A DNA stretch of 42,621 nucleotides from Clostridia bacterium. GTDB taxonomy: Bacteria > Bacillota > Clostridia > Christensenellales > CAG-314. Where the stretch lies: contig JAGBWW010000066.1 in assembly GCA_017629595.1 (NCBI GenBank), positions 1 to 42,621 on the forward strand, in the 5' to 3' direction. Shown here in pieces: positions 18,790-23,054 of this stretch. Below the pieces are notes generated by a model that saw only the letters and a program-made list of their open reading frames with translations, was not told the DNA's origin and searched no databases. The first letter of the stretch is position 1. Each line of letters starts with the position of its first letter. The position numbers and the translations under genes were made by a program.

Positions 18790-20184
18790 ATGAAAACAGT
18801 ATCAATTAAACATATTTTTGCATCCCCCGAACAATATTTTGACAAAAAAATATCCGTTTGTGGATGGGTAAAAACTTTGCGCGATTCCAAAGTCTTTGGC
18901 TTTATTGAACTCAATGACGGCAGTTGCTTCAAAAACTTGCAAATTGTTTTTGAACAAGGCACAATTGACAACTTTGACGAAATTGCAAAACTCAACGTGG
19001 GCAGTTCAATTTTGGTAGAAGGCGTTTGCGTTGCAACACCCAATAACAAACAACCTTTGGAAATTAAGGCAACAAATATTCAAATTGAAGGCAAATCCAC
19101 ACCCGACTATCCTTTGCAAAAGAAACGTCACACTGTGGAATATTTGCGTGAAATTGCCCACTTGCGTCCCAGAACAAACTTGATTTCGGCAGTTATGCGT
19201 GTTCGTTCTGTGGCAGCGTATGCAATTCACAGTTTTTTCAACGAAAACGGCTTCGTTTACGTTCACACGCCTTTGATTACTGCAAGTGACTGCGAAGGTG
19301 TCGGCGAAATGTTTAGAGTTACCACTTTGGACGTTGAAAATCCTCCCAAAACACAAGACGGAAAGGTGGATTTCAAACAAGACTTTTTCGGCAAAAGTTC
19401 CTTCTTGACTGTTTCCGGACAACTTAACGTTGAAACGTATTGCATGGCATTTGGCAAAGTTTACACCTTTGGTCCTACCTTCCGTGCAGAAGTTTCCAAC
19501 ACACAACGTCACGCAGCGGAATTTTGGATGATTGAACCGGAAATTGCATTTGCAGACCTTTGCGACACAATGGATTTGGCAGAAGCAATGACAAAATACG
19601 TTATTAAATACGTTTTGAAACATTGCCCCGACGAAATTGCATTTTTCAACAATTTTGTGGATAAAACTTTGTTGCAAAGACTTTGTGAACTTGCAGATGC
19701 AAAATTTGCTCGTATGAGTTATACGGAAGCCGTTGAAGAACTGTCCAAAAACAACGATGCTTTTGAATATCCTATTAAGTGGGGACAATCTTTGCAAACG
19801 GAACACGAAAAATTCCTTACCGAAAAAGTGGTGGGTGGCCCTGTATTTGTTACCGACTATCCCCAAGACGTCAAAGCATTTTATATGCGCTTAAACGACG
19901 ACGGAAAAACGGTTGCTTGCACAGATATGTTGGTTCCCGGTATTGGCGAATTGATTGGTGGAAGTCAACGTGAAGAACGTTTGGACGTACTCCTTTCCAA
20001 TATCAAAAAGTTTGGTCTTAACGAAGAAGATTATTGGTGGTATCTTGATTTAAGAAAATACGGTGGCACCAAACACGGTGGTTACGGCATTGGTTTTGAA
20101 CGTTTGGTAATGTTCTTGACAGGCGTTTCCAATATTCGTGACGTATTGCCTTTCCCCAGAACAAGCAAAAACGCACAATTCTAA
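18790..20184 (+). CDS. asnS: Asparaginyl-tRNA synthetase
   Basis: AsnRS is a class IIb enzyme that charges tRNA-Asn. The 464-aa length matches AsnS. An N-terminal OB-fold anticodon-binding domain has [14 protein letters not shown]. Class II motif 2 is seen around [19 protein letters not shown], and motif 3 is [14 protein letters not shown]. The ending [13 protein letters not shown] is typical of AsnRS and distinguishes it from AspRS. It starts 2 nt after the ftsZ stop with AGGAAGGG inside the ftsZ end, so it is coupled to the division operon, an uncommon neighbour. No T-box precedes it. Confidence 0.97.
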
Positions 20185-20200
20185 TTTATATAAAAATTTA

Positions 20201-20230
20201 CGCTCAACCGAGGTTGTTGAGCGTTTTTTT
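20201..20230 (+). terminator. Intrinsic terminator after asnS
   Basis: CGCTCAAC (20201-20208) pairs with GTTGAGCG (20216-20223) and is followed by seven T. The stem sequence is almost the same as that of the acpP terminator at 20954. Confidence 0.88.
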
Positions 20231-20266
20231 ATGCATATTTCCAAAAAATCTTACAATACTATTAGT

Positions 20267-20416
20267 ATGAAAAGGACAAGAAAAAGACGTTATCACACAA
20301 CGCGAACACCCATTACGTTTGCAGGTATAGAACAGCAATTTGTCGGCAATCCAATGCTTTTGGGCGGAATTGCATCTTTCCCCAACGACAGCACGCAAAT
20401 CGACAAAAAGCCTTAA
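20267..20416 (+). CDS. Possible small basic protein of unknown function
   Basis: A 49-codon frame starts at ATG 20267 with the very basic N-terminus MKRTRKRRYH and ends in DKKP. I do not recognise it. A TACAAT box (20252-20257) lies 9 nt ahead of the ATG, which would give an almost leaderless message, but the matching -35 region is poor and there is no Shine-Dalgarno. The region between the asnS terminator and the acpP promoter (about 420 nt) otherwise holds only the next small frame. It may be a real micro-protein or chance. Confidence 0.4.
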   Translation: MKRTRKRRYHTTRTPITFAGIEQQFVGNPMLLGGIASFPNDSTQIDKKP

Positions 20417-20709: not shown

Positions 20710-20937
20710 ATGGTATTGGAAAAAGTAAAAAGATTACTTGCCGAACAACTTAACGTCAAACCCGAATCTATTACAAGAGAATCCAACATTGTCGTGGATT
20801 TGCACGCAGACTCCTTGGACGTAGTTGAATTGCTTATGGCATTGGAAGACGAATACGGCGTAACAATTCCTGACGAGGAAGCCAACAACTTTGCAACGGT
20901 AGGCGCATTGGTTGACTTTATTGAATCCATCAAATAA
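20710..20937 (+). CDS. acpP: Acyl carrier protein
   Basis: ACP carries growing acyl chains on a 4'-phosphopantetheine arm during fatty-acid synthesis. The 75-aa acidic protein has the modification site in DLHADSLDVVELLMALE (Ser of DSL), and the second and third helices DEYGVTIPDEEA and TVGALVDFIESI. ATG 20710 is chosen because GGAGG at 20697-20701 is 8 nt upstream; the in-frame ATG at 20695 overlaps that ribosome binding site. The gene stands alone between its own promoter and terminator, not beside fab genes or rnc, as is common in some Clostridia. Confidence 0.95.
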   Translation: MVLEKVKRLLAEQLNVKPESITRESNIVVDLHADSLDVVELLMALEDEYGVTIPDEEANNFATVGALVDFIESIK

Positions 20938-20953
20938 TTTATACAAAAAACTG

Positions 20954-20981
20954 AACGCTCAACTTACGTTGGGCGTTTTTT
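20954..20981 (+). terminator. Intrinsic terminator after acpP
   Basis: AACGCTCAAC (20954-20963) pairs with GTTGGGCGTT (20968-20977) across a 4-nt loop with one G-U pair, then a T-tract. Confidence 0.85.
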
Positions 20982-21070
20982 GTCTTCAAAATTTATTGCT
21001 TTCAACACGTGGTGGACGTTAAGTGTTTTCTCAAAAGAGAATAACGCAAATTCAAAATTTGAAATTAAAC

Positions 21071-21098
21071 AATAGGGCGGTTTGAGTAAAATCAAATC
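21071..21098 (+). repeat. Hairpin repeat, copy 1
   Basis: AATAGGGCGGTTTGAG (21071-21086) runs into a small hairpin, GGTTTGA (21079-21085) with TCAAATC (21092-21098), loop GTAAAA. The same element occurs at 21534-21559. The stem is identical in the two copies while the loop differs in sequence and length. Copy 1 lies just upstream of the promoter of the unknown gene at 21164. Confidence 0.6.
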
Positions 21099-21102
21099 GT
21101 CT

Positions 21103-21132
21103 TTGACTTTTTTTATATCTCTATGATATAAT
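21103..21132 (+). promoter_or_regulatory. Promoter of the unknown gene at 21164
   Basis: TTGACT (21103-21108), an 18-nt spacer and TATAAT (21127-21132) preceded by TGA (extended -10) predict a start near 21139, about 25 nt before the ATG. Confidence 0.8.
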
Positions 21133-21163
21133 GAAATTGCCAATCAATTAAGGAGGCTTACAT

Positions 21164-21514
21164 ATGTTTGTAAAAAGCAAAATCAGATCATATTTGCTAA
21201 AAGTAGGCGAAAACAAAAGTCCTTTTGACGTTTTATTATCCGATTATTTAAACGGCAAACTTAAAAGAGAATTTCAAAATGAAAAAATTAGAGTTATATC
21301 CATCCGCATTGATTGGTCTGATGATAACAAATGTATATTAGTACGTGGCAAATATCAGGCGTATCACATTGATGTAGAGATTTACCCTAGCGAACTCACC
21401 ATTTCGTATGATTCTTGCAACAACGAAAGTATGACGTATCCTCTAGATAGCAGTGAGCAAGTATATAGCAACTTGCTTGGTGTTATCAAGATGATACATA
21501 TCAAATACAGTTGA
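21164..21514 (+). CDS. Hypothetical protein, 116 aa
   Basis: I do not recognise this protein. It has a strong promoter and an excellent ribosome binding site (AGGAGG at 21151-21156) ahead of the ATG, so it is very probably expressed. The sequence is soluble, with no membrane segment or signal peptide. The N-terminal half is basic with helical character (KSKIRSYLLK, LNGKLKREF). The middle alternates like a beta sheet (RVISIRIDW, KCILVRGKYQAYHIDVEIY). The end is acidic then hydrophobic. It is bracketed by two copies of a small hairpin repeat. Its Asp-Val junction at the 'HIDVEI' site uses GAT-GTA, against the strong local preference for GAC-GTN, a faint hint of different origin. Function unknown. 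Confidence 0.75.
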   Translation: MFVKSKIRSYLLKVGENKSPFDVLLSDYLNGKLKREFQNEKIRVISIRIDWSDDNKCILVRGKYQAYHIDVEIYPSELTISYDSCNNESMTYPLDSSEQVYSNLLGVIKMIHIKYS

Positions 21515-21533
21515 TAAAAACTCAAAACTTAAG

Positions 21534-21559
21534 AACAGGGCGGTTTGAGCAGTCAAATC
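21534..21559 (+). repeat. Hairpin repeat, copy 2
   Basis: AACAGGGCGGTTTGAG (21534-21549) differs from copy 1 at one of 16 positions. It forms the same stem, GGTTTGA (21542-21548) with TCAAATC (21553-21559), but with the loop GCAG. It lies 20 nt after the stop of the unknown gene. Confidence 0.6.
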
Positions 21560-21798
21560 CAACTCTTGAAACATAGTTGCAAATCTTAATAGGAAAAGCG
21601 CTGATTTTGCTCTTTGCTCGTTTGGAGGTGCGAAGAGTGCGACGTTGAGATTGAAAATCAAAGGAGAAAAACCATCTCACCATCACGAGTAAAAATATCT
21701 TTGCCTAACAAAATAGGAGAGAAAATGAAGTCTATTATTTGGTAATTGTTCAGACAATTTAAGTTGGCGATAATTAGCCCTTGTTATATTTTCAAGTA

Positions 21799-21826
21799 AA
21801 AACGGAGCAATGTCTCCGTTTTTTTT
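21799..21826 (+). terminator. Intrinsic terminator without an adjacent gene
   Basis: AAAACGGAG (21799-21807) pairs with CTCCGTTTT (21814-21822) and continues into a T-tract to 21826. The nearest upstream coding region ends 285 nt earlier, which implies a long 3' UTR or a separate RNA. Between here and 22045 (about 220 nt) I see only AT-rich DNA and the next promoter. Confidence 0.85.
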
Positions 21827-21990
21827 GTAAAGTTATTGTGTCATTTGATTATAATTACAAAAAACAAATTTTATTAGTACCATATTTTCTGCAATATAGG
21901 TTTGAGAAACAGTGGTGGAATTAAATTTCTGCAAAGAAAGAAATTTGTTGTGGATTAAATATTACTGCAAGTAAATTAGTTTTGCGCAAA

Positions 21991-22020
21991 TTGACAAAAA
22001 AAGTCGCAAGGTAGTATATA
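21991..22020 (+). promoter_or_regulatory. Promoter of the ytxC-like gene
   Basis: Consensus TTGACA (21991-21996) and TATATA (22015-22020) are 18 nt apart, predicting a start near 22028. That leaves a leader of only about 18 nt, in which no Shine-Dalgarno is visible. Confidence 0.6.
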
Positions 22021-22045
22021 AATCCTCTTTGCATAAACTATAATT

Positions 22046-22792
22046 ATGTATGAAATCACCATTTGGACGACCAAAAAGACGCATATAGAATACTTAAAAA
22101 GACAAACCTCTTGCTTTATAAGGAGTATAAACGGCGTATATGCAACCGTTTCAATAAACAAAATACACGGAATAAGTTTTGCAGTATCTAGTTTATTTTC
22201 CGACCAAATTAAAAGGAAACTGACTCCAATTTTAACGGAAATTTTGTGTTTGGGCTTTAAGGCTGACTATTTTATAGAAAGGCTGAAAGTCCCCAAAACG
22301 CCACTCAAAAATTTGTTGATTGGCACTATGAGTTTGTTTGACAATCAGGCAGATTACAATTCCACAAAAGGACTTTTCTCTTGGGACAAACCGATATATT
22401 TGGAAGGTTATTTCAACTTTTTGATGACGTCAATAAAGAGGCGGTGGGAAGAAGTCGCTCAACTGTGCGACAACAACCGATTGCTTTTTTCGGACGTTGA
22501 GGTAGGAAAGGAATTTTTAACCTTTTTGGTGCAATCTATGCCCTTTAAGCATGAAAAATTGTCTTTGGAGTGTTGTCAAAACGATTATCATTTGTTCGAC
22601 GAACACGAACAAATTATGGGCAACCTTTGGCAATATCTAGATGGTGCAACGCCACAAGAAATGGCGCTTTTGGATCTTGTAAAAAACAAGTCAAAAAGGT
22701 TGAAAATATACGAAGCGTGCAGTTTTTTTGACGAACTAACAATGCAACTATTAAATCAAATGTTTGACGTCAAGTTGATTGAAAAGAGTTGA
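22046..22792 (+). CDS. ytxC: YtxC-like protein (putative sporulation-associated)
   Basis: This is a 248-aa soluble protein of unknown biochemical role. The pattern IYLEGYFNFLMTSIKRRWEE, followed by the FLTFLVQSMPFKHEKLSLEC region and then YHLFDEH, matches what I remember of the YtxC family (LEGF..FRL, EFI.LLKYFV, Y.L.DE). Location supports the call, because ytxC sits directly upstream of thrS in Bacillus subtilis and many Clostridia. The family is named for a putative sporulation link, but its activity is not established. The start at ATG 22046 has no ribosome binding site; a second ATG is not available nearby. The thrS T-box begins about 40 nt after its stop. Confidence 0.65.
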   Translation: MYEITIWTTKKTHIEYLKRQTSCFIRSINGVYATVSINKIHGISFAVSSLFSDQIKRKLTPILTEILCLGFKADYFIERLKVPKTPLKNLLIGTMSLFDNQADYNSTKGLFSWDKPIYLEGYFNFLMTSIKRRWEEVAQLCDNNRLLFSDVEVGKEFLTFLVQSMPFKHEKLSLECCQNDYHLFDEHEQIMGNLWQYLDGATPQEMALLDLVKNKSKRLKIYEACSFFDELTMQLLNQMFDVKLIEKS

Positions 22793-22821: not shown

Positions 22822-23054
22822 TATAATTAAATAAGAGAAAAAGACACGTTTTATGTTTTAGTTTTTCAGAGAAGGGCTGGTTGGTGCAAAGCCTTAGGCG
22901 ATTCATAAAATACCACTTTTTACAAAATCTCTTTCAGTTTGTTCTTTCTGAGTAAAAAAAGTTCAAAGTGGGCGACTTTTGGTCGTCAAGTAAGGTGGAA
23001 CCACGGATTTTATTCGTCCTTATGCAACGGTGTGTTGCGTAAGGACTTTTTTTT
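22822..23054 (+). promoter_or_regulatory. T-box riboswitch (threonine) controlling thrS
   Basis: TATAAT at 22822-22827 gives a start near 22834. Stem I follows, closed by AAGAGA with TCTCTT, with the distal GGCTGGTTGGTGCAAAGCC loops. The specifier loop presents ACC (22912-22914), a threonine codon, followed by A, between the stems AAAAAG/CTTTTT and GTTTTATG/CATAAAAT. The T-box sequence AAGGTGGAACCACG is at 22992-23005. The terminator pairs 23016-23028 with 23034-23046 and has eight T. Uncharged tRNA-Thr should bind the specifier and T-box, favour the antiterminator (T-box AAGG with CCTT) and allow thrS transcription. All diagnostic parts are visible. Confidence 0.95.

Follow-up and report, generated by a model that had tools for sequence, protein, structure and literature searches.

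A 116-residue protein gene between twin hairpins lies in a variable acpP–ytxC slot whose DNA appears to have been exchanged recently between two Clostridia species

The interval between an acpP-like and a ytxC-like gene in the window (the whole 42,621-nucleotide stretch of a Clostridia bacterium genome analysed here) is, as read from sequence, a variable accessory slot, and its DNA appears to have been exchanged recently between two species of the genus. We consider it probable that a gene for a 116-aa protein is cargo of this slot, that the slot was swapped by recombination, and that the two similar hairpins around the gene stem from a local duplication. The features on which the argument rests are the following:

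20710–20937, + strand: acpP-like acyl carrier protein gene, the left core flank; conserved beside lysS in the bacterial family and named from sequence and position.
20918–22026, no strand assigned: low-divergence, putatively recently exchanged tract common to the congener G001; from a maximum-likelihood two-breakpoint fit.
20953–20980, + strand: predicted intrinsic terminator of acpP transcription; a stem of 11 bp with a T run behind it (z −5.3).
21074–21103, + strand: hairpin copy 1, which resembles a terminator and abuts the −35 box with its 3′ end.
21103–21132, + strand: promoter TTGACT-18-TATAAT; 11 of 12 consensus bases, with TG before the −10 box.
21150–21156, + strand: Shine-Dalgarno AAGGAGG, read from sequence.
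21164–21514, + strand: gene of the 116-aa protein, a member of a Clostridia family that has no name; homologues of 29–47% identity in six other genomes, AlphaFold2 pLDDT 90.
21515–21829, + strand: probable 3′ UTR of ~315 nt, ending in a hairpin with a T run (about 21803–21828); from sequence and fold.
21537–21559, + strand: hairpin copy 2, in the 3′ UTR, without a T run and absent from the terminator listing.
22046–22792, + strand: ytxC-like gene, the right core flank; 25–31% identical to its counterparts in the bacterial family, the window copy without a Pfam match.

Throughout the bacterial family, lysS-acpP and the ytxC-like gene (with thrS) are conserved neighbours, and what lies between them differs. 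Two ytxC-like counterparts have a match to Pfam YtxC (PF08812), which passes the cut-off in one and falls short of it in the other. The slot is nearly empty in three genomes (G010, G011 and G015; about 110–150 bp), measures about 280 bp in G004, and holds a gene for an AlkD-like DNA-alkylation-repair protein in five (G002, G003, G006, G007 and G023; Pfam confirms one of these calls, and the other four rest on the translated sequence). In G020 a Pfam-confirmed IS200-like transposase gene sits directly 3′ of acpP (L053, 1725–2210, at the contig end). The 116-aa gene occupies the slot in two genomes. The first-pass annotation asked whether the segment 21071–21559 is present or cleanly absent in relatives. 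Slots without the gene do occur; however, no clean absence at the hairpin boundaries was found, as the near-empty slots are missing the DNA beyond the hairpins too.

The promoter, the Shine-Dalgarno sequence and the presence of homologues in six genomes besides the congener indicate that the 116-aa frame is a real gene, and the strong expression signals described in the first-pass annotation are indeed there. Its remark that the protein matches no familiar family was also borne out, since searches of Pfam, NCBIfam and PDB sequences gave no match. Homologues of the protein yielded only sub-threshold matches, each by a single homologue, in Pfam, PHROGs and PADLOC; one of these, a PADLOC DUF3800 match (E 0.0017), was taken as chance. 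The protein family found here has 8 members, distributed patchily across Clostridia: clear homologues are present in 3 of 41 genomes of the bacterial family and in 7 of 396 genomes of the order, and the class and phylum samples contained none besides the window's own genome. The congener copy is 97% identical. Elsewhere, the neighbourhoods of the homologues are unrelated to one another (TldE/PmbA, RhaA, Lgt and others), and the hairpins are absent. Association with a TldD/PmbA gene was rejected, as it occurs in only 2 of 6 homologue contexts. A phage or plasmid origin was likewise discarded: no convincing protein or DNA match was obtained, and the one phage match had an E of 1.

Evidence for a recent exchange comes from alignment with G001, the sole congener available; both genomes are draft assemblies, and that of the congener is metagenome-assembled. 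Over a 5.7-kb aligned contig, 27 differences fall within the 1109 positions of the tract versus 748 in the 4564 positions outside (log-likelihood gain 99). Identity is 97.6% in the tract, while the flanking DNA differs at ~16% of sites, and the change is abrupt at both edges. The synonymous divergence (dS) of the 116-aa gene from G001 is 0.031, compared with 0.52 for lysS, 0.64 for acpP, 1.49 for the ytxC-like gene and 0.59 for thrS; ten more window genes range from 0.13 to 2.6, the lowest being rplT. In the rest of the window, as far as it was aligned, 300-nt stretches at least 96% identical were found only at tRNAs and around rplT. The 116-aa gene has accumulated 2 synonymous and 4 non-synonymous changes (dN/dS about 0.45), a count that points to recent common origin, not purifying selection, as the cause of its low divergence. 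The fitted edges lie within ~20 bp of where the flanking coding regions end, so that the tract takes in the acpP terminator and nearly all the DNA upstream of the ytxC-like gene. It overshoots the hairpin-bracketed unit by ~155 bp on the left and ~470 bp on the right; because it extends well beyond both hairpins, these would not be the ends of the recently moved unit. Edges near coding ends also fit two insertions of one larger element. A more diverged patch at 21852–21879, where about eight substitutions and an indel of 3 nt interrupt a tract otherwise ~98% identical, counts against the exchange.

A probable scheme can be proposed. The 116-aa gene would be accessory cargo in a variable slot between two core blocks, lysS-acpP and ytxC-thrS, and the whole segment 20918–22026, rather than the hairpin-bracketed unit, would have moved recently between two species. 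The exchange itself is read from the sequence; as its route we infer homologous recombination through the flanking core genes, which is the most parsimonious mechanism. That accessory slots change by recombination in the core genes next to them is well documented (PMC5635113). The acpP–ytxC locus shares with such slots the conserved core flanks, the changing contents, the lack of an adjoining mobility gene and a recombination tract between genomes; it differs in that the exchange is between species and involves one small slot and one gene. Within the slot, the gene would be transcribed from its own promoter to the terminator near 21828. Hairpin 1 would most likely serve as a second terminator, or insulator, before the promoter, shielding it from readthrough, hairpin 2 would most likely be a 3′-UTR structure, and both would probably derive from a short local duplication.

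The hairpins themselves are as the first-pass annotation described them: a duplicated element in which the stem is kept and the loop varies. The repeat, which flanks the gene, is AGGGCGGTTTGAGTAAAATCAAATC in copy 1 (21074–21098) and AGGGCGGTTTGAGCAGTCAAATC in copy 2 (21537–21559). The 13-mer AGGGCGGTTTGAG is identical in both, the wider 33 nt are 79% alike, and both copies can form the 7-bp stem GGTTTGA/TCAAATC, with one G-U pair, around loops of 6 nt in copy 1 and 4 nt in copy 2. The two copies differ in strength: copy 1 extends to 11–12 bp (−14.1 kcal/mol, z −4.9 against shuffles), while copy 2 is weaker (−8.2 kcal/mol, z −0.9) and folds no better than shuffled sequence. Hairpin 1 looks like a terminator and hairpin 2 does not, as far as sequence can tell. 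A XerCD/dif-like site was considered and set aside by eye, as the 11-6-11 layout of copy 1 does not recur in copy 2, whose spacer is 4 nt.

Further copies, which would be anticipated for a mobile element, were not found. When the pattern was written as AGGGCGGTTTGA-N4-6-TCAAATC, the 1.08-Mb genome contained exactly 2 occurrences, both at the 116-aa gene. Variants with up to 2 mismatches numbered 13, compared with 27 for a reversed-pattern control, and thus showed no excess. G001 carries the same pair, only at the matching locus, and a search of viral contigs gave two matches. The twin hairpins are probably a lone, short, local duplication.

An alternative that we regard as less probable, yet deserving consideration, is that the repeat arose by chance, or serves as a DNA operator, without a structural function common to its copies, a possibility compatible with exchange of the slot. 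The existence of just two copies and the unremarkable fold of copy 2 are in its favour. On the other hand, it is unlikely by chance that a G+C-rich 13-mer and also the 3′ arm recur within 463 bp. Local alignment of the two ~100-nt hairpin regions, which were chosen after the fact, scored 22.5, compared with a mean of 10.9 and a maximum of 19 in 1000 shuffles. When the 1.1-kb segment is shuffled, an exact repeat of 13 nt, whatever its sequence, appears in 5.6% of cases, and one as G+C-rich as AGGGCGGTTTGAG should be rarer. As for an operator, the two-nt difference in loop length would displace the half-sites of a DNA-binding dimer.

An unlikely explanation for the similarity to G001 is that the segment is kept by functional constraint, as a structured RNA plus a protein, including the case of an RNA-protein pair whose 3′ UTR controls the gene. 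The non-coding parts are conserved as well as the gene, and positions 21601–21611 of the 3′ UTR are complementary to codons 5–8 (21176–21186), with a predicted pairing of ~0.94; 5 of 300 shuffles gave a duplex of at least this strength. A comparable plan is known from icaR, in which the 5′ and 3′ UTRs pair (PMC3868564). However, synonymous sites are nearly unchanged and the non-synonymous rate is typical of weak constraint, so that recency explains the pattern better. Constraint does not require such an abrupt start and end at the flanks either, the 3′-UTR fold itself is unremarkable (z −1.6), and the two copies, near-identical by recent exchange, offer no covariation for the predicted pairing. 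A self-contained unit, in which the 3′ UTR pairs with its own coding start to control a horizontally spreading protein and the hairpins act as matched processing or control sites, seems more doubtful still. Rfam gave only the thrS T-box and tRNAs as credible matches. A short peptide in the 3′ UTR, MKSIIW, was discarded because G001 lacks its start codon. In type III toxin-antitoxin systems, tandem RNA repeats precede the toxin gene; this class was rejected, as only two copies are present, and they lie on opposite sides of the gene instead of in tandem before it.

Least credible is a reading in which the hairpins mark both ends of a small non-autonomous single-strand transposon (a PATE of the IS200/IS605 type) with the 116-aa gene as passenger. 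Same-orientation hairpins with a common 5′ foot are seen at the ends of IS200/IS605 elements (PMC7290912), and the hairpins on both sides of our gene share that arrangement, although copy 2 is weak. In addition, an IS200-like transposase occupies the same slot in G020, whose genome has a homologue of the 116-aa protein elsewhere. Unlike such elements, ours is present in a single copy in the genome, at one site only in both the window's genome (G000) and G001, and no matching transposase ends were found: the hairpin upstream of the G020 transposase, the one such element compared, is unrelated (ACCACCGG...CCGGTGGT), and a link to that element was therefore rejected. A cassette bounded by the hairpins, the mobile unit suggested in the first-pass annotation, is also countered by a moved tract larger than the bracketed part, by homologues that lack hairpins and by the lack of a linked transposase or recombinase. 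What survives of that suggestion is that the gene is accessory and horizontally moved, as indicated by the varying slot contents and the recent exchange with G001. The hairpins could be the ends of an older insertion, which nothing found here supports.

Turning to the putative cargo, AlphaFold2 models were confident (pLDDT 90 for the 116-aa protein, and 91) and predict three helices, a five-stranded sheet and a C-terminal helix. As modelled, it is a small alpha/beta protein, and most plausibly it would function as a binding protein on its own. The best structural match, obtained with the model of one homologue only, was the immunity protein TriTu (7zhm_C; probability 0.98, TM 0.50/0.65, with a weak E of 0.22); the window protein's own model had no useful match, and TriTu was not among its top 50. 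The weak resemblance to TriTu and the patchy, stand-alone and mobile distribution make an orphan immunity protein a reasonable guess, which we offer as a speculation with rather low odds. Neither the protein nor its homologues matched a known immunity family by sequence. Orphan immunity genes of gut bacteria, described for type VI secretion between Gram-negative bacteria (PMC12247911), are likewise small, stand-alone, patchy and horizontally moved, and the weak TriTu likeness of one homologue adds to the resemblance; however, the host here belongs to Clostridia, and no toxin-immunity context was seen.

Altogether, the locus records what appears to be a recent swap of an entire intergenic slot between species of uncultured gut Clostridia with small genomes, and it defines an unnamed protein family whose members seem to move horizontally. 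The acpP–ytxC slot of relatives is a place to mine further cargo genes. A caution applies as well: the duplicated hairpin seen here should not be taken for the end of a mobile element.

Additional observations concern the flanks. A putative 92-aa frame (20138–20416) overlaps the end of lysS; the congener has a 54% identical frame, and no family was found. The ytxC-like gene (22046–22792) diverges very fast from its congener counterpart (57% protein identity, dS 1.49, dN 0.33) and directly adjoins the near-identical tract. Just before its start, CATAAACTA (22030–22045) is kept in relatives and resembles the −10 element recognised by sporulation sigma factors E/K. Before thrS, a T-box leader was detected at 22826–23024 (E 1.6e-18, below the Rfam gathering score).
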